Positions 7,907-14,947 of a stretch of DNA of 64,000 nucleotides are shown here, in pieces (position 1 is the stretch's first letter; each line of letters opens with the position of its first letter). The notes below the pieces were generated by a model. That model searched no databases. It worked only from the letters and a program-made list of their open reading frames with translations, and was not told where the DNA came from. The stretch lies in contig JAGYIR010000010.1 of NCBI GenBank assembly GCA_018402525.1, positions 496,001 to 560,000 on the forward strand. The letters run 5' to 3'. The DNA comes from Crocinitomicaceae bacterium (GTDB taxonomy: Bacteria; Bacteroidota; Bacteroidia; Flavobacteriales_D; Crocinitomicaceae). A program made the position numbers and the translations under genes.

Positions 7907-8605
7907 TTAATCTTTTATGCAACGAATGCAAAATCCAGCCCGTTGGTATTCGGAATTGTTATTTGAAATGTAAGTTCCATCTGCAAAAATGGAAAAGTTA
8001 AAACTTCCTGCTGTAAATAGGGAAGACCACCATCTTGCTGTACCACCGATACTGTAGAAATTACCGTTGGTTTGTCTATATCCACCAGGAAGAGCATTAA
8101 ATCCGCTTTCATTCGTAGCTCCAGTATTTGGGCTAATCCAATGTGTGGTACCAATTGACTTCATTTTACCTCCAGCAACGCTTTCGCCTCCTAAATAATT
8201 TGTTAGTACTAACCATTCAGCTTTTGATGCAACATGCCAGCCAGATGGACATATATTTCTGAAGTCATCTACTGCGTACCAATTATAAAGTTTCCCATAC
8301 CCATTGTTATAGGAGCTTTGATTATTGTAGTGGCACCAAGCTCCAGAAGTTAAATTATTCCAATCTGTCATATCTGTAACATTGGGAATGGCATCTCCAT
8401 TGGCATATCTGGTTGTTTTTAGGTTTTCTGCCATCCATATTTGATTCCCAATTTTAACTGTTGAGTAGCTGTTTCCGTCCACGTCTACGACATTGGCGGG
8501 AGGGTTTTCATTTGCGTTTTGGTTTGGATCGGTATTGTCGTTATTGTCCTTGTTACATGCAAAAGTTAAACTTGAAATTAGAAGGATAGTGAAAATATTT
8601 TGCAT
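7907..8605 (-). CDS. FISUMP-domain lipoprotein (Fibrobacter succinogenes major paralogous domain)
   Basis: The 232-residue protein has a lipoprotein signal (MQNIFTILLISSLTFAC), a low-complexity Asn/Asp/Pro linker, and then a complete FISUMP domain (TIGR02145). Family landmarks are GNQIWMAENLKTTRYANG, LYNWYAV, CPSGWHVAS, GGYR and the C-terminal GFCIRCIKD. The function of this domain is not established; it is a common surface module in Bacteroidota. I start at the ATG at 8605 because the longer frame begins with TTG. It lies 17 nt after the restored end of the frameshifted secreted-protein gene, so the two probably share the palindrome-bearing promoter at 9065-9113. Confidence 0.88.
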   Translation of the reverse strand: MQNIFTILLISSLTFACNKDNNDNTDPNQNANENPPANVVDVDGNSYSTVKIGNQIWMAENLKTTRYANGDAIPNVTDMTDWNNLTSGAWCHYNNQSSYNNGYGKLYNWYAVDDFRNICPSGWHVASKAEWLVLTNYLGGESVAGGKMKSIGTTHWISPNTGATNESGFNALPGGYRQTNGNFYSIGGTARWWSSLFTAGSFNFSIFADGTYISNNNSEYQRAGFCIRCIKD

Positions 8606-8622
8606 AATGTTTACCAAGAATA

Positions 8623-9041
8623 TTAATTAAACGTTGAACGTTTAACGACTGTATATCCATCTGATTTTTTCCATGACCAATCGTATTGTGACAAGTTGCT
8701 CACGGCCCTTTCTTCAGCTTCTGCATAAGAACTTGAACTCGCACCAAGTCCAAAAGAGGTTATTCTTTTCCTTCATAATTAGTTCTTACTGCCTCAACAA
8801 CAATCCAATAACCGCTAGTTAAGTTGTGTCCTCTTTGCTCTCCTCCGGTTAAAGTGTAAACATTTGTGTAACCTTGTTCTTTTAGTTTGGCACGGGCAAC
8901 TGATTCCGTTTCCCAGCCTTCATTGTAAACAACTTGCCAACGAACGGAAGACCCATTATCATCTTTTGCTACAGCAATACCAATTTGGGAATAAACATTA
9001 TAAGTAAAAAACAGTGAAATAGTGATTAGTAAATTTTTCAT
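8623..9041 (-). pseudogene. Small secreted protein gene with a 1-nt frameshift
   Basis: The open part (8760-9041, 93 codons) encodes a signal peptide ending near Tyr-Ser-Gln and a soluble domain. It stops at NYEGKE. The next frame continues without a stop for about 45 more codons to 8623, with coding-like content (SYAEAEERAVSNLSQYDWSW). Adding one A to the A run at 8766-8769 joins the two halves into a 139-residue protein. So either the gene lost one base or the assembly has a homopolymer error. I do not recognise the family. The promoter carries the same palindrome as the operon at 13.3 kb. Confidence 0.75.
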
Positions 9042-9064: not shown

Positions 9065-9113
9065 CAAATTAACATGAACGATTTTGAGTACACAATACTC
9101 AGCGCTGAGTATT
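9065..9113 (-). promoter_or_regulatory. Promoter with -33/-7 boxes overlapped by a perfect 20-bp palindrome
   Basis: On the minus strand, the perfect palindrome AATACTCAGCGCTGAGTATT (9094-9113) runs into the -33 TTG (9093-9095). A 20-nt spacer follows, then a -7 box TTAATTTG (9065-9072), one change from TAnnTTTG. The same arrangement, with the same spacing, occurs at 13373-13421. A palindrome fused to the -33 box is a likely regulator site. Confidence 0.75.
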
Positions 9114-9119
9114 TTGGCG

Positions 9120-11120
9120 TCATTTACCGTTATAATCGAAATTGGAAGGAGGGTAAGTCGTAACGTGATCTTCCACAGGATATTTAGGTTCAAAAATTAT
9201 TTTTCCATTTTCATCAATGATTCCGTATAAATCACCGATTCGGTAGTTGTAAATAGGGATGTCAGATTTACTTGTCCAATCATCAAGTCCGTTACAACTA
9301 ATGGTTCCTTTGGGAAGCGGTTTTTTGGAGAACAATAGATAGGGTTTACTATCTTTTACATACATGGAAAGTTTTAATGAAGTAATGTTTCCCTTATCCA
9401 CTACGAAACTATCAAATGAATCGTAAAATGAATAATATTTTGAAAACTGAATCAGATAGTTTGTATTCTTGTAGTTGATTAACAGCTGTTTAAAAGGTTG
9501 ATACCTTCTAGTTTCGCGGGGTACATATCTACCAGTATTGGCATTAGAGAGAAGTTTATCAAAAACGGGAAAATTAGTTGCTCGTTTCCCATCTACATAT
9601 AAAAAACATGAGTTCTTTTGATGTGCTACTATAAAACCATCTCCGAGATAAGATAACGAGTCATAGATAAATTCGGCCCCCTCAAAAGATTTAGGGTGAA
9701 CTAATCCCCACTTATCATTCTTTTTAATAAACAGTGAATCACTAAGAGACCCATTTAAAAAATTTGCAACATTTTCGCTCAACGCTTGGATTCCTTCTGG
9801 CAAAATATTCTTTTTTAAATCCAAGGAATAGTAATTGATTTTACCATCCTTGGTATATCCAAACAAATCACCAAAACTCTTGTAGTTATGCAAGGTGTAG
9901 TAATCTTGATTATAACCATGAAAATACGGTTCATCAATATCTGAAATGATATGATTAAAATTCTCATCCAAAAGATCAATTTTTCCTTTTGAATTTTCGC
10001 CAATAATCACCATGTTAACTTTTTCTTTCTCAAATTGTGGATACAATGATTTTGAAAGTACTCTTATGTCTTTCAATTTCAAATCTGTTATTTTCCCGTC
10101 ACTTGGATTATAGAAAAAGGCGTTCTCATTTTCATCTTCAAGAAGTAATTGAGTAGAAATTAATCTAATACTTTTATACTGGATTGGTATAACAAATTCT
10201 TGATTTTTATTGACAACTCCGTAAAGTTGGTCGCCATAACTATTTTTGTCTGCGTTGCTAACAATAGTAAGTTCCAAAGATTGAATTCTCTCTACAATAT
10301 AATGATCTGATTTTTCAACAGAATTATCGTTACAATGGTAAAAGATACTACCATTGTGAGAACCCTGTTTCAAGAAAATTTCTTCTTCACAGTTAGGTGC
10401 GGTACTGTAATATTCACCTTCTTGGGCATAGTAAAGTTTATCGTCTATAACAAATTTGCCTTGTTCGTTTACAAGAGACCAATATCCTCCATACAGGCCA
10501 TCATTGCTGTTCCCATCAATATATACTTTCCCTACATTCTTACTATTTAGATTGCTACACCATGTGAATTTTGCAGGTGTAATTTCGGTTCCATCAACGT
10601 TGATATACCCCCATTTCCCTCCTTGCACCAATTGAGGCATCATGTCTCTTCCTCCCTTATTAAATGGGGCAATTCCGTTCTTGTTTACTTCTCCGATGTA
10701 GCTATATTTTTTGGTAACGACTTCTTTCTTATTTTTTATATCGTAGACTCCATAACGGGGAAGAACATCGTCGTTTGGGTTTGCATCTATGGCAACTACA
10801 GTGGCATAATTTGGGTTTTCTGAAGAAATTGAAGCATTAGAATATTTTTTTTCGGGCACTAGTTTCTTCAGGTCGGTGGTTAAAATCTGAACGGTTTCAT
10901 CTTCGTAGTGAACCACAAAAAATTGATCTTCGACAATTGTCGCTTCAGAGAATACAAATCCAGTGAGATTTGTTCCTGTTTTTTCATTGAAGATAGCATA
11001 TGGAGGAGAACCATAACTTCCTGCTTGGGCGTAAACTTTATAGGTTTGGGCGTGGGAGGGGATGACAAGTAATAAAATTGTTAGAACAACGAAGAAGGGG
11101 TACAGAAGTCTGTTTTGCAT
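9120..11120 (-). CDS. Exported WG-repeat protein
   Basis: The 666-residue protein has a signal peptide (about 1-24) and many copies of the WG beta-repeat, with units such as GKWGYINVDGTEITPAKF, KWGLVHP and LYGIIDENGKIIFEPKYP. WG repeats form beta-propeller- or solenoid-like surfaces thought to mediate binding; no enzymatic residues are evident. It starts just upstream of the palindrome promoter that drives the next minus-strand gene and has no matching palindrome of its own. The 285 nt upstream are AT-rich, include a C7A8 run near 11340, and show no clear promoter. Confidence 0.85.
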   Translation of the reverse strand: MQNRLLYPFFVVLTILLLVIPSHAQTYKVYAQAGSYGSPPYAIFNEKTGTNLTGFVFSEATIVEDQFFVVHYEDETVQILTTDLKKLVPEKKYSNASISSENPNYATVVAIDANPNDDVLPRYGVYDIKNKKEVVTKKYSYIGEVNKNGIAPFNKGGRDMMPQLVQGGKWGYINVDGTEITPAKFTWCSNLNSKNVGKVYIDGNSNDGLYGGYWSLVNEQGKFVIDDKLYYAQEGEYYSTAPNCEEEIFLKQGSHNGSIFYHCNDNSVEKSDHYIVERIQSLELTIVSNADKNSYGDQLYGVVNKNQEFVIPIQYKSIRLISTQLLLEDENENAFFYNPSDGKITDLKLKDIRVLSKSLYPQFEKEKVNMVIIGENSKGKIDLLDENFNHIISDIDEPYFHGYNQDYYTLHNYKSFGDLFGYTKDGKINYYSLDLKKNILPEGIQALSENVANFLNGSLSDSLFIKKNDKWGLVHPKSFEGAEFIYDSLSYLGDGFIVAHQKNSCFLYVDGKRATNFPVFDKLLSNANTGRYVPRETRRYQPFKQLLINYKNTNYLIQFSKYYSFYDSFDSFVVDKGNITSLKLSMYVKDSKPYLLFSKKPLPKGTISCNGLDDWTSKSDIPIYNYRIGDLYGIIDENGKIIFEPKYPVEDHVTTYPPSNFDYNGK

Positions 11121-11405
11121 GTCTATAGTGGTTTTTAATAGGTTAGAATTTAGGTGTTAATAATTGACTTTAGCAATAGTTTTTATTATTTTCACTAAAG
11201 CCTCTTTGTAATTGCTTTAGAAATCTTGGTTTTGGATCATACACAAATTCTAAATGGGGGAATTCTCAGTAAATCTTTTGGATGTTTTTTGATTGATTTA
11301 TCTGATGTTATTTATAAATGTAATTTATGAGGCAATTCCTCCCCCCAAAAAAAATTACTTGTGGATTAAATAATGCATTTATATAATAGTGAGTTCGATC
11401 TGAAC

Positions 11406-12578
11406 CTATTCTTGAAAAGTAATCATAAAAACGCCCTTAGATATGAGGTGCTTAATTAAATTAATTTTTCCTTCATCATCTATACTGCGCGGTAAGTCGT
11501 TGATGCAGACAGGCTCATCTTGGTTGAAAAGCTCCCGAACTATTCCTTCTGTATACTTTGGAAGGATTATATATTCTCCCCCACATATGATCGTTAGTTC
11601 TTCCTTATCCACTGTGATAGAGAATGCTAATTTTGAAGTTCGTTCAACCTTAGTCTTTAAGTCAATAGTACCAATTTGCCTAGCGTGATCAATGTAATTA
11701 GAAATTACTGGTTTCTGATTTTTTTGAATAAAAGATTTGACATAGTTATATATATATTCAAGTGTATTCTTTTCATTAAAGATGTTTTGAAATTTGTTAA
11801 GGAATATGTCATTTAATTCCTTTTCGTTTGAATTGAAAAAGGGAACATATTCTCTCAGTTCTACATTTGATAAAATCTGTTCTTGAACATAGGTCGCAAT
11901 GAAATCACCCCAAGTTGTTCCCATATATCCTATCGTAATATGCAACGAATATTCACCGTCAGATTCAGCAGAATGCCAAACCCCTCTGGGAATATATAGA
12001 GTATCACCTTGATGTAAAGTAAAATCTTCAATACAATTTCCATGTTCATATTCCCCAGAAACAAATTTCTGATCGTGGTGGGGCCATTTTATCGGACTCT
12101 CATCAAAAATTTTCCATTTCTTTTGACCTCCTACTTGAAGAACTATGACATCATGACTATCGTAATGAATTTTGAACCCTTGGGAATTCGGGGGAGTCAA
12201 GTAAACATTGGTTTGAAATCTATGTCCAGTTTCTCCCTCAAGTTCACTTGTTAGAACGGAAAGTGGTCGAATGCTTTTGTGCAACCCTGAAAAGGCTATT
12301 GTGGCGCCATTTATAAAGTTTTCGAACAACGCTTTTTTATTTATTACACTGTTGGAATACACGTATAGTTTAGTATCGATTGCCTCAGCATTTTTAACAA
12401 TTCTAACATCAGGATACCTTAGCTCTACGTTTTGCAAGTAATTCTCAATTATTTCTTTGTTCAATAATTTGTAAAAGTAATTTGAGTTGGCTCTTTTAAG
12501 AATTAAATGTTTTTTTTGAAAATAATTGTGAATAAAGTCATCATGATAGTTGTCAAAAATGTATTGTAATCTTTTCAT
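11406..12578 (-). CDS. JmjC/cupin-8 Fe(II)/2-oxoglutarate oxygenase (ROX-like)
   Basis: The 390-residue protein matches the ribosomal-oxygenase/JmjC fold (PF08007 type). Likely iron ligands are His138 and Asp140 in HYDSHDV and His202 in YIPRGVWHSAE; the 62-64-residue spacing fits YcfD-like enzymes. VLQVGGQKKWKIF is the usual segment after the first ligands. The C-terminal 80 residues look like a winged-helix domain, usual in ROX proteins and loosely like PqqD-type peptide-recognition domains. Family members hydroxylate proteins or peptides. It lies downstream of two small exported-protein genes on the same strand but beyond a terminator, so its substrate is open; the Ser/Tyr/Asp repeat peptide at 13070-13336 is a candidate. 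Confidence 0.85.
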   Translation of the reverse strand: MKRLQYIFDNYHDDFIHNYFQKKHLILKRANSNYFYKLLNKEIIENYLQNVELRYPDVRIVKNAEAIDTKLYVYSNSVINKKALFENFINGATIAFSGLHKSIRPLSVLTSELEGETGHRFQTNVYLTPPNSQGFKIHYDSHDVIVLQVGGQKKWKIFDESPIKWPHHDQKFVSGEYEHGNCIEDFTLHQGDTLYIPRGVWHSAESDGEYSLHITIGYMGTTWGDFIATYVQEQILSNVELREYVPFFNSNEKELNDIFLNKFQNIFNEKNTLEYIYNYVKSFIQKNQKPVISNYIDHARQIGTIDLKTKVERTSKLAFSITVDKEELTIICGGEYIILPKYTEGIVRELFNQDEPVCINDLPRSIDDEGKINLIKHLISKGVFMITFQE

Positions 12579-12660
12579 AAATTGGACTTGTATAAGGAAA
12601 GTTTTTAGAAATTGTAATAAGATGCTTCACATAACACTAATTTCGTAGATTTCGTCAATG

Positions 12661-12694
12661 AAAAGAGGTTGCTCCTTACTCAGAAACAACCTCT
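12661..12694 (-). terminator. Terminator between the small helical protein gene and the JmjC gene
   Basis: On the minus strand, arms AGAGGTTG and CAACCTCT enclose a loop and are followed by TTTT. It probably ends most transcripts from the 13.3-kb promoter, so the JmjC gene may depend on read-through or its own promoter. Confidence 0.7.
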
Positions 12695-12710
12695 AATTGG
12701 ATTTAACAAT

Positions 12711-13055
12711 CTATTTTTTTACTAGTAAGTTCCGGTTCATTTGAGCCCATTCAGCCTTCTTTTGATCGCTAGAAAGAATGGAAGTTACGGCTACATAGAA
12801 ATCCTTTCGGGTTTCAATCATTTCTTGTTCATAGTCAGCTTCTAACATTTTCTTTCCCTTTTCACGTAGTTTCAACGTGTTTGATTGAAAGATAACACAC
12901 TCATTGTAGAGTGCCTTTTTTTCCTGCTCAGTTAATTCTATTTGAGCCGTAATTTTTGCCACTTGTTTTTCAGCTCTTTCATTCGATGAGCGATCATTTT
13001 GTCCGTTAACTGCCATAGTAATAGTTGTGGCGAGAATTAAAATTAAAATTTTCAT
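12711..13055 (-). CDS. Small exported alpha-helical protein
   Basis: The 114-residue product has a signal peptide ending near Val-Asn-Gly-Gln, then a charged, Glu/Lys-rich helical body. LTEQEKKALYNE and SSDQKKAEW recall the LTxxQ segments of Spy/CpxP-like periplasmic proteins, but the match is loose. It follows the repeat-peptide gene by 14 nt and precedes a terminator, so the two form a short operon from the palindrome promoter. A periplasmic chaperone-like or sensor role is possible but unproven. Confidence 0.7.
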   Translation of the reverse strand: MKILILILATTITMAVNGQNDRSSNERAEKQVAKITAQIELTEQEKKALYNECVIFQSNTLKLREKGKKMLEADYEQEMIETRKDFYVAVTSILSSDQKKAEWAQMNRNLLVKK

Positions 13056-13069
13056 AGTTCACTTTTATA

Positions 13070-13336
13070 TTAATTATCAGAATAACTTGTAACATCAGAA
13101 TCATTAAGATCATAAGCTCCTACGTCATATGAATCATTACCAGGCCCCACATCATATGAACCGTTATCATAAGAATCCTGCGCTGGATCAGCATATGATG
13201 TTGTGTCATTATCCGAACAAGCTGTCATAAGGGTTAACAGCGCAGCTCCAATAATTGTTTTCGAAGAGCCTAATAAGTTTTTTGAAATGTCGCTTGATTG
13301 GATATCACTTAAGCCCAACGTTGGAAGTTTTTTCAT
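13070..13336 (-). CDS. Small Ser/Tyr/Asp-repeat peptide with leader or lipoprotein signal
   Basis: The 88-residue product has three parts: a polar N-terminus (MKKLPTLGLSDIQSSDISKN, then LLGSSK), a hydrophobic stretch ending in the lipobox-like MTAC, and an acidic tail of SYDNG/SYDVG/AYDLN-type units with no Lys or Arg. The 26-residue N-region is long for a lipoprotein signal and resembles leader segments of Bacteroidota peptide precursors. It could be a surface lipoprotein or a modified-peptide precursor. The GPGNDSYDVG segment also recalls a single RTX-type calcium turn. I start at the ATG at 13336; the TTG at 13375 overlaps the -7 box and cannot be right. Confidence 0.7.
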   Translation of the reverse strand: MKKLPTLGLSDIQSSDISKNLLGSSKTIIGAALLTLMTACSDNDTTSYADPAQDSYDNGSYDVGPGNDSYDVGAYDLNDSDVTSYSDN

Positions 13337-13372
13337 AGCATAAAATTTAATCGTTGAATAATTTAGTTGATG

Positions 13373-13421
13373 CAAATATATTTCTCGAGAATTTTGAATA
13401 CAATACTCAATACTGAGTATT
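13373..13421 (-). promoter_or_regulatory. Promoter with -33/-7 boxes overlapped by a 20-bp palindrome
   Basis: On the minus strand the palindrome AATACTCAGTATTGAGTATT (13402-13421, 8-bp perfect arms) runs into the -33 TTG (13401-13403). A 20-nt spacer and a perfect -7 box TATATTTG (13373-13380) follow. Only 15 bases separate the palindrome from the stop of the PAS-LuxR gene. The layout matches the promoter at 9065-9113 base for base in spacing. Confidence 0.8.
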
Positions 13422-13436
13422 TTTCACCCAAAAAAC

Positions 13437-14171
13437 TTAAACAATTCCGTTTTGATGGCAAAAAGACATGAGATCCAGGGTGTTCTTACAGCCTGCTTTT
13501 CTTAGTATGTTTCTTCTGTGGGTATCTACAGTGTGTCGACTTATAAACAGCAAGTTTCCTATCTCTTCACTGCTTAATCCACTGTGAATCCCGTTAACAA
13601 TTTCTAACTCGCGTGGGGAGAAAAAGTTTTCATACTGGTGACCTATGTATTTTTTAAAGGCTTCTTGATCTAAACCGCTTGCGTCAAATTTCCATTCAAC
13701 ACAGTTTGCAGTATTCATGTATGAAATATCTGTAAGCAATGATAAGTTACTGATGAACTTGCCATTATTATCAACTTCAAATACATTGGATTGTCGAAGT
13801 ACTTTGATGTACTCTCCATTCTTTTTCCGTAACCTAAAAGTCAAATAAAGATGACCATCTTGATACAGGTTATGGTCAATGGCATAACTCACTGCGGCTT
13901 GAATAATACGTAGTACCATTCCTGCATCGTCGGGATGAAAATAGCTGTGAATTAAATCAGAGTTAATTTCCTCAGGAGTATATCCTAAAAATTCAAAAAC
14001 GCCTTTTTGGAATGTAATAGATGAGGTTTGATAGTTGTGGACATATAAACATTGTGATAAACCCAAAGGATATCTTTCTAAACTATCAAACGATTGCGCT
14101 GAAACTTCTACGTGCTTCAGCTTTTCCTTTTGTTGCTTAAGAAATGAATGTATGGGGCTACCTTCAATCAT
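13437..14171 (-). CDS. PAS-LuxR transcriptional regulator
   Basis: The 244-residue protein has an N-terminal PAS-like sensing domain (about 30-165; FLGYTPEEINSDLIHSYFHPDD and FRLRKKNGEYIKVLRQSN are typical PAS_3 pieces) and a C-terminal LuxR helix-turn-helix (about 180-244; FSPRELEIVNGIHSGLSSEE then IGNLLFISRHTVDTHRRNI). There is no receiver domain, so it probably responds to a ligand or redox cue rather than phosphorylation. Its start overlaps the end of the hydrolase gene by 4 nt. It lies just upstream of the palindromic promoter of the repeat-peptide operon, so it is the obvious candidate to bind that palindrome. Confidence 0.88.
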   Translation of the reverse strand: MIEGSPIHSFLKQQKEKLKHVEVSAQSFDSLERYPLGLSQCLYVHNYQTSSITFQKGVFEFLGYTPEEINSDLIHSYFHPDDAGMVLRIIQAAVSYAIDHNLYQDGHLYLTFRLRKKNGEYIKVLRQSNVFEVDNNGKFISNLSLLTDISYMNTANCVEWKFDASGLDQEAFKKYIGHQYENFFSPRELEIVNGIHSGLSSEEIGNLLFISRHTVDTHRRNILRKAGCKNTLDLMSFCHQNGIV

Positions 14172-14947
14172 GTAAATCGTTCTAGAAATTTTAGCGTTAA
14201 GTCGTAACTTTCTTTTGGTTTTTCCAATAAACTGTAATGTCCTGCACCTTGAATTTCTGCGAAGAAATCAAAAACGCCTTCGCTGTTTAGCAGGACTAAG
14301 TACTCATTGTTTACGACGGTATCCGCAAGACCAATAATGCAACCAACTGGAATAGATTTATTTTGTTTCACTATTTCTAAATGGTCAGAAAATTTCAATG
14401 CGCCAAACTCTTGCAGTAATCGATCTCTAAAAGCTGGATCAGTAGTTGAAAACGTCTTTTTCAGATAGCTCATAGTGCTTTTAGTAGAATCAAAATTCCG
14501 GAGAAATTCTTCAATTAGGACAAGATTTTCTTCTTCGTTATTTGTTAGGGCTAAATCTGGAAGTTTTAAATAAGCGGCAAGGCTACTTGTGTATGAAATG
14601 GGTGCAGCAGACAACAATAGCAATCCGTCAACCTTAACCATTTTCATCAGTTCTATAGCTAAATTTCCACCCATAGAATGTCCAATTATGACAAGCTTTT
14701 TATAGCTAAAATTGTTCAACAGTTCAACCAAGCACTGAATAAATAATTCATAATTGTATTCGCTTGGCTCAAGCCTTGGACTTTTTCCGTGTCCAATATA
14801 ATCAGGGGCAACTACATTCCAGCCTTCAAATGTATGTATGAATGTTTCGAAATAGTTGGAATCTGTAGAGTTTCCATGTAGGCATAATAGTAGTTTATCA
14901 GAATCACACATGCTTTTCTGATAGTGAAGAGGTAATAGTTTGTTCAT
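14168..14947 (-). CDS. Alpha/beta hydrolase
   Basis: The roughly 259-residue alpha/beta-fold hydrolase has the nucleophile elbow GHSMGG (Ser91), an oxyanion-side HGNSTDSNYF segment near the N-terminus, a likely acid Asp in LADTVV, and a catalytic His in GAGHYSLLEKP. No signal peptide is seen, so it is cytoplasmic. I take the ATG at 14947; the longer frame begins with GTG at 14965. It overlaps the PAS-LuxR gene by 4 nt, so the two are co-expressed. An enzyme that makes or removes the ligand of the regulator is a reasonable but untested idea. Confidence 0.88.
   Translation of the reverse strand: MNKLLPLHYQKSMCDSDKLLLCLHGNSTDSNYFETFIHTFEGWNVVAPDYIGHGKSPRLEPSEYNYELFIQCLVELLNNFSYKKLVIIGHSMGGNLAIELMKMVKVDGLLLLSAAPISYTSSLAAYLKLPDLALTNNEEENLVLIEEFLRNFDSTKSTMSYLKKTFSTTDPAFRDRLLQEFGALKFSDHLEIVKQNKSIPVGCIIGLADTVVNNEYLVLLNSEGVFDFFAEIQGAGHYSLLEKPKESYDLTLKFLERFT

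Follow-up and report, generated by a model that had tools for sequence, protein, structure and literature searches.

The heptamers bound by NarL follow the consensus TACYYMT. Quorum-sensing LuxR proteins combine a LuxR-type helix-turn-helix (HTH) with a palindrome near -42, LuxR solos of the PipR type sit beside hydrolase genes, and the receptor VqmA of Vibrio and phage VP882 consists of a PAS domain and a LuxR-type HTH. Here we analyse a 64,000-nucleotide stretch of the genome of a Crocinitomicaceae bacterium, the host (assembly GCA_018402525.1, contig JAGYIR010000010.1, positions 496,001 to 560,000; hereafter the window), in which a 20-bp palindrome occurs at two predicted promoters, one of them next to a gene for a PAS-LuxR regulator, and probably serves as the operator of this regulator. 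At yeaR, Escherichia coli NarL acts as an activator through a 7-2-7 site that immediately precedes the -35 element, and its downstream site at ogt is centred at -44.5, as described in the parts of PMC7419079 that concern these promoters; for the 7-2-7 arrangement, one engineered 16-mer is given in the relevant part of PMC4549865. A literature search for an operator of Bacteroidota LuxR-type HTH regulators found none.

With the quorum-sensing LuxR proteins the host system shares the LuxR-type HTH and a palindrome close to -42, and with the PipR-type solos the hydrolase alongside, whereas it differs in having a PAS_3 domain and no autoinducer-binding match (LuxI homologues were not searched for). 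The likeness to VqmA, which belongs to another lineage, is one of domain layout. The host box has the NarL 7-2-7 form, TACTCAN-NN-NTGAGTA, and stands beside a -33 element at a constant promoter distance. Features shared with NarL at yeaR-yoaG and ogt, as far as the passages on these sites in PMC7419079 and PMC4549865 go, are the GerE HTH, two heptamers in inverted orientation 2 bp apart, a site abutting or just upstream of the -35 element and the TAC...GTA ends. NarL, however, has a phosphorylated receiver and answers nitrate, whereas in the host the sensor is a PAS domain, a hydrolase gene overlaps that of the regulator and the promoter is of the Bacteroidota type.

Two palindromes are part of predicted promoters

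On the minus strand of the window the palindrome is present as AATACTCAGCGCTGAGTATT (9113-9094) and as AATACTCAGTATTGAGTATT (13421-13402). At both sites, the last two bases of the palindrome and the following G form TTG, and 20 nt further on TTAATTTG or TATATTTG is found; both promoters fit TTG-N20-T(A/T)nnTTTG. An earlier note on this DNA had described these palindromes and this promoter layout at 9065-9113 and 13373-13421, and they were present as described; the distance of 15 nt between the end of the PAS-LuxR gene and the second palindrome (13402-13421) was confirmed from the coordinates. The elements and the two genes next to them are:

13402 to 13421, minus strand: predicted palindromic operator 1, AATACTCA-N4-TGAGTATT; stop codon of the PAS-LuxR gene 15 nt away
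13373 to 13403, minus strand: predicted promoter before the 88-aa gene, TTG (13403-13401), N20, TATATTTG (13380-13373)
9094 to 9113, minus strand: predicted palindromic operator 2; stop codon of the WG-repeat gene 6 nt away
9065 to 9095, minus strand: predicted promoter of the 93-aa gene, TTG (9095-9093), N20, TTAATTTG (9072-9065)
13437 to 14171, minus strand: PAS_3 plus GerE (LuxR-type HTH) regulator of 244 aa, which presumably binds both palindromes
14168 to 14947, minus strand: alpha/beta hydrolase, overlapping the start of the regulator gene by 4 nt

When the window was scanned with up to three mismatches, five matches were found (the two palindromes on both strands and one place with three mismatches), compared to 0.21 in shuffled sequences. 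The whole host genome (G000; 3,157,214 bases, 98.3% complete) holds palindromes with 0-1 mismatch at two places only, and the remaining places listed have three mismatches each. The palindromes are therefore a two-site set, 4.3 kb apart, and not a repeat dispersed over the genome or a box used throughout it. In the spacer of the promoter of the 93-aa gene, an extra TACTCA half-site was seen by eye.

The same box adjoins LuxR-type genes in other genomes

When 299 genomes of the order were searched with at most one mismatch to the first pattern, 13 sites were found in 8 genomes. For eight of these, a LuxR-type gene is no more than 150 bp away (G160, G292:C72, two in G145, G008, two in G034 and window 13402), and five are farther from such genes (G292:C37, G292:C44, G182, G128 and window 9094). 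The reversed pattern, used as a control, had matches in 3 of the 299 genomes. Judged from the order matches, the conserved part of the box is AATACTCA-N4-TGAGTATT, and an exact scan of public genome contigs with this pattern gave at least 116 loci with 120 sites; 80 of the loci were titled. Within 150 bp of these listed sites we counted 24 LuxR-HTH open reading frames (ORFs), compared to 0.78 expected from the density of such ORFs at 150-8000 bp from the sites (Poisson 2e-27, assuming independence; some loci are related, and not all counts are independent). The 395 genomes of the class contain nine exact sites in six genomes, and the mirror-image pattern had no site in them. With two sites in the host genome, and nine in the class genomes against none for the mirror image, the palindrome is not scattered at chance frequency, an outcome that the earlier note had named as refuting its prediction.

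The LuxR proteins at the box do not all have the same sensor. Besides PAS-LuxR proteins, the box adjoins LuxR proteins with receiver (L139, L141, L160, L165), TPR-SpoIIE (L069, L071) and hemerythrin (L102, L156) domains. Among 20 LuxR proteins encoded at palindromes or as tandem partners, eight had PAS_3 at E <0.001 and four short ones had no sensor match. Because proteins with different sensors adjoin the same box, it is, as judged from these neighbourhoods, a box of the HTH class; an operator private to PAS-LuxR proteins was rejected, the identical box being carried by the receiver, TPR-SpoIIE and hemerythrin types.

The hemerythrin-LuxR genes of L102 (4298-5311) and L156 (5618-6643) are preceded by a palindrome promoter, and these iron- or oxygen-type sensors may therefore regulate their own genes; a literature search on hemerythrin-LuxR proteins found nothing to the point. 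In Desulforhopalus, a PAS-LuxR gene (L098, 629-1451) has the palindrome 24 nt upstream, without TAnnTTTG at 21 nt, and the box therefore occurs at PAS-LuxR genes outside Bacteroidota too.

At many Bacteroidota sites the -7 box lies at one distance from the palindrome

The sequence was read outwards in both directions from the palindrome ends of 130 non-duplicate sites, which gave 259 arms. Among the matches listed, to which all counts of arms and sites in this section refer, 36 of 259 arms have TAnnTTTG beginning at exactly 21 nt from the palindrome end (TTG plus 20 nt), while the next best offset, 20 nt, was found in 4 of 259. Of the 52 arms at LuxR-adjacent sites, 11 had the box at 21 nt, compared to 25 of 207 elsewhere; loci added later had no LuxR table, and L204, which is near a LuxR gene, was therefore counted as far. 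Bacteroidota-titled sites had it in 26 of 60 cases, compared to 0 of 24 for the others (phylum labels were assigned by hand from the titles of the 80 titled loci, two titled only 'bacterium' being placed with the others, and 36 further loci without a title in view were omitted). The base directly after the palindrome is G in 25 of 35 boxed arms, a set which the two window sites entered through a looser -7 pattern, compared to 49 of 208 unboxed arms. The -33 TTG thus appears to be favoured, but not required.

TAnnTTTG corresponds to the sigma-A -7 box of Flavobacterium psychrophilum, located at -12 to -5 according to the promoter description in PMC9723704. By arithmetic, TAnnTTTG at these positions makes the palindrome span -53 to -34, with its centre at -43.5. 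Such a constant spacing would suit an activator that contacts RNA polymerase, and the box looks like a NarL-like operator that LuxR proteins of different kinds have in common and that is promoter-locked at many Bacteroidota sites.

The same operator and regulator might also work by repression, the protein covering the -33 box and departing when its ligand is bound. The palindrome does overlap the -33 TTG, and this TTG is kept in 25 of the 35 boxed arms. However, the -7 distance is held to one value, whereas simple occlusion tolerates several positions, and in 10 of 35 boxed arms the TTG is absent, which an activator can replace. Moreover, NarL sites at a comparable position activate, at least at the promoters covered in the relevant part of PMC7419079. 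We therefore regard a repressor as unlikely.

The distance to the -7 box also bears on whether the palindromes are instead terminators, mobile-element repeats or chance occurrences with a coincidental promoter layout. Both palindromes are located just past a stop codon, and a strict -7 box is present at 0 of 7 class-sample sites, as this explanation would have it. Yet no G+C-rich stem was seen by eye, TAnnTTTG lies at a constant 21 nt with the difference between Bacteroidota and other sites given above (26/60 and 0/24), the mirror control had 0 sites in 395 genomes and the host genome has two copies only. This makes the explanation extremely improbable, and chance or repeat origin was rejected (0.21 matches in window shuffles, two genome copies, mirror control 0).

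Genes whose products look FeoA-like by eye (ferrous iron transport) are preceded by a palindrome with a -7 box at 21 nt in L186 (near 7075) and in L190 (near 3669).

The adjacent PAS-LuxR protein is the likely regulator

Pfam searches with the 244-aa regulator gave GerE (PF00196, E 8.7e-13, residues 184-236 of 244) and PAS_3 (E 3e-11), and neither a receiver nor an autoinducer-binding domain at E up to 1. Both features of the PAS-LuxR class, a PAS domain plus a C-terminal GerE HTH, are combined here in a short protein. Its best PDB match is 3clo_A 'Transcriptional regulator' (E 8.9e-9), with the best stretch in the HTH (residues 175-233); the match is mainly one of the HTH, and we know of no operator for 3clo_A, for which no search was made. 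The regulator query had four matches in the host genome, and LuxR-type HTH matches were found in 40 of 40 genomes (the host and 39 relatives). Relatives of the regulator at E 1e-18 are present in 16 of the 299 order genomes, the host included, while a search of public genome contigs for relatives confirmed none.

Nineteen loci chosen by this PAS-LuxR protein similarity were compared. Seven of them, including the window, have a site within 260 bp of the gene when up to two mismatches are allowed, whereas the density of unselected matches (3 in 337 kb) gives an expectation of about 0.1 sites. For this background rate, 13 of 18 matches were omitted as pattern-selected (or, for the window and L068, as the sites themselves), as were two further matches at PAS-LuxR genes, which leaves 3 of 18. 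The sites at PAS-LuxR homologues include the altered heptamers TACTCC and TACCCA. The host has three other LuxR genes, and around the two inspected the best match to the 12-base core within ~2 kb had three mismatches and was ~800 bp off. Because of the adjacency, the two genome sites and the absence of a site at these two of three other LuxR genes, the PAS-LuxR protein is the likely binder, assigned by adjacency and not from sequence alone.

Another LuxR-family protein of the host could bind the box, with the adjacency of the PAS-LuxR gene being coincidental. Elsewhere the box adjoins receiver-, TPR- and hemerythrin-type LuxR proteins, and four matches to the regulator query are available in the host genome. 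On the other hand, there are two genome sites only, one of them 15 nt from the PAS-LuxR gene, the two other host LuxR genes inspected (of three) are without such a site, and the five co-directional pairs of hydrolase and PAS-LuxR genes described below have a site after the LuxR gene. A different binder thus seems quite unlikely.

Hydrolase and PAS-LuxR genes recur as pairs followed by the palindrome

Besides the window, four more genomes (loci L150, L068/L101, L181 and L078) have a PAS-LuxR gene that is overlapped or abutted by a co-directional gene for an alpha/beta hydrolase. The L150 regulator is 44% identical to that of the window, L068/L101 have two LuxR genes and L181 has two hydrolases. 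In all five co-directional pairs found, the palindrome lies 0 to ~39 nt after the last LuxR gene, the copy of L078 having two mismatches. L150 and L181 were taken from the palindrome scan and are not independent, while L068 and L078 came from the protein search. Two further loci selected by the scan, L193 (2160) and L145 (7069), have a LuxR gene convergent with a related hydrolase gene; there the palindrome is located at the hydrolase start and precedes a divergent gene with a signal-like start, whose product looks exported. The Ser at the nucleophile position and the His are invariant across six aligned hydrolases. This recurring gene neighbourhood suggests that the hydrolase may act in making or removing the ligand of the PAS domain.

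At L082 (7010-8482) and L083 (7335-8831), a gene that by eye resembles one for a metal-dependent hydrolase lies beside the PAS-LuxR gene in place of an alpha/beta hydrolase gene.

A probable regulon under the PAS-LuxR protein

One regulon under the PAS-LuxR protein, as the earlier note had predicted, was supported: the palindrome is found at LuxR genes far above chance, has a constant distance to the -7 box and follows the LuxR gene in all five co-directional pairs found. We consider one regulon under the neighbouring PAS-LuxR the best reading of the comparative data. In its full form, this reading is that the palindrome is probably a 7-2-7 operator of the PAS-LuxR protein, centred near -43.5, from which surface-protein operons are activated.

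An HTH dimer would bind two inverted TACTCAN heptamers with a 2-bp gap. The operator would be built into a Bacteroidota sigma-A promoter, with the operator end providing the -33 TTG and the -7 box following after a constant spacer of 20 nt. With TAnnTTTG at -12 to -5, the operator would be centred near -43.5, which is a class II activator position. The likely binder in the host is the adjacent PAS-LuxR protein, and the alpha/beta hydrolase encoded by the overlapping gene may make, destroy or release the PAS ligand. The active regulator would switch on the genes for the 88-aa peptide, the 114-aa protein and the JmjC oxygenase behind operator 1 as well as the 93-aa gene behind operator 2, and both outputs would be at the cell surface. 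The comparison shows the sequence of the box, its spacing and its recurrence; binding, activation over repression, the extents of the operons, the ligand and the role of the hydrolase are what we infer in this scheme.

Several observations weigh against this reading. Of the 120 listed sites, 96 are more than 150 bp from any detected LuxR gene, and some of the compared loci are kin, which makes the counts partly non-independent. In the class sample, one of the seven sites outside the window is near a LuxR gene (L204; 3-kb loci inspected), and none of the seven has a strict TAnnTTTG at 21 nt; TTTG is correctly placed in 4 of their 14 arms, and one arm has TACTATTG. The strict box at 21 nt is missing from 223 of 259 arms, each promoter using one arm only, a base other than G comes after the palindrome in 10 of 35 boxed arms, and the second -7 box of the window, TTAATTTG, departs from TAnnTTTG. 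Within 260 bp of the gene, 12 of the 19 PAS-LuxR loci have no site at up to two mismatches. Receiver, TPR-SpoIIE and hemerythrin LuxR proteins at the same box mean that another LuxR protein of this genome could bind it, and an operator overlapping the -33 box could also repress. Our confidence in the full reading is slightly lowered because of the 0 of 7 strict boxes in the class sample and because the rival explanations exclude it.

Because both the box and its exact spacing to the promoter are visible in the sequence, they would allow target prediction, starting with the adjacent gene. The data suggest that, in a phylum whose promoter code is its own, LuxR proteins with PAS, receiver, TPR or hemerythrin sensors all follow a NarL-style 7-2-7 rule.

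Genes behind the two predicted operators

The earlier note had placed small exported proteins behind both promoters, and by eye the 93-aa product has a signal-like N-terminus and the 88-aa product a lipobox-like Cys. The genes are:

13070 to 13336, minus strand: 88-aa peptide with the leader LPTL..SDI, a hydrophobic stretch, lipobox-like Cys40 and Asp/Tyr/Ser/Gly repeats (DSYDxGxYD)
12711 to 13055, minus strand: small protein of 114 aa that looks exported, with weak similarity to a neighbouring product of related cassettes
11406 to 12578, minus strand: JmjC_2 (PF08007, 1.2e-25) oxygenase, presumed modifier of the 88-aa peptide
9120 to 11120, minus strand: WG-repeat protein with a signal-like start
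8760 to 9041, minus strand: 93-aa exported-looking protein, first gene after operator 2
7907 to 8605, minus strand: FISUMP (Fib_succ_major) lipoprotein-like gene, next downstream of the 93-aa gene with a 154-bp gap

The gap between the 114-aa gene and the JmjC gene is 132 bp. It is uncertain whether the WG-repeat gene belongs to the operon, because it is separated from the JmjC gene by 285 bp. Behind the 35 boxed arms at large, a crude first-ATG rule gave an ORF in 29, and 16 of these 29 start like a signal peptide or lipoprotein by eye. On the minus strand at 8655-8770, sequence of a similar look (SFGLGASSSSYAEAEERAV...) goes on in another frame beyond the stop codon of the 93-aa gene, and this gene may therefore be frameshifted or decayed, or the assembly in error.

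For the cassette behind operator 1, 13 JmjC homologue loci from other genomes were compared, with ORFs listed in 10 of them and L216, L218 and L220 covered by a composition filter only; L213, the second JmjC match of the host genome, was kept outside this comparison. A peptide like the 88-aa one directly precedes the JmjC gene at 6 of 10 loci (L210, L211, L212, L214, L215 and L223, L211 and L212 being close relatives), and the ORF listings of L217, L219, L221 and L222 contain none in this position. The aligned peptides have a common leader (LVDSDI-like) and Asp-rich tails, which are Tyr-rich in most. The lipobox-like stretch of the 88-aa peptide reads LMTAC by eye, and the Cys is not in one column across six aligned peptides. 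A weak relative of the 114-aa protein is encoded next door in L210-L212, and the 114-aa protein itself weakly matches the chryseobasin precursor model (E 1.8e-4, 22 bits with a cut-off of 50). Among nine neighbouring proteins scanned, no MNIO enzyme was found at E up to 1; JmjC_2 was found instead. By eye, no exact palindrome was seen in the 230 nt upstream of six related JmjC cassettes, and the link of palindrome and cassette was therefore seen in the host genome only.

Bacterial relatives of JmjC proteins with folds like the RiPP recognition element occur in contexts like those of ribosomally synthesized and post-translationally modified peptides (RiPPs), as reported in the part of PMC12710340 on these proteins, a RiPP precursor hydroxylated by a JmjC enzyme is described in the relevant part of PMC12707348, and lipidated RiPPs exist according to the core description in PMC12636315 (preprint). 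Because of these precedents, it is plausible by analogy that the 88-aa product is a lipidated, JmjC-hydroxylated RiPP. Like the DAG-RiPPs, which are hybrids of RiPP and lipoprotein, as far as they are outlined in PMC12636315, the host has a short precursor-like peptide with a lipobox-like Cys beside an oxygenase, but theirs are MNIO enzymes and the host enzyme is a JmjC_2 protein. With BipG it would have in common a JmjC enzyme modifying a RiPP precursor (relevant parts of PMC12707348 and PMC12710340), whereas BipG hydroxylates ornithine, in the portion of PMC12707348 concerned, and the host peptide has Asp/Tyr repeats and a JmjC_2 partner. A literature search for a RiPP class of JmjC-hydroxylated, lipid-anchored Asp/Tyr-repeat peptides found none. 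We tentatively propose, while rather doubting it as a whole, a portable Bacteroidota cassette in which the hydrolase sets the level of a small diffusible ligand, the PAS-LuxR protein reads this ligand and the palindrome promoter drives the surface gene behind it, here a JmjC-hydroxylated, lipid-anchored Asp/Tyr-repeat peptide.

Other genes were seen by eye around the JmjC homologues. At L214 and L215 a TonB-receptor-like gene lies ahead of the Asp-rich peptide and the JmjC gene, which hints at metal or peptide uptake. An HPr-kinase-like gene follows the JmjC gene at L219 and L222, and L221 has a small PqqD-like ORF close to its JmjC gene; both neighbourhoods resemble RiPP clusters.

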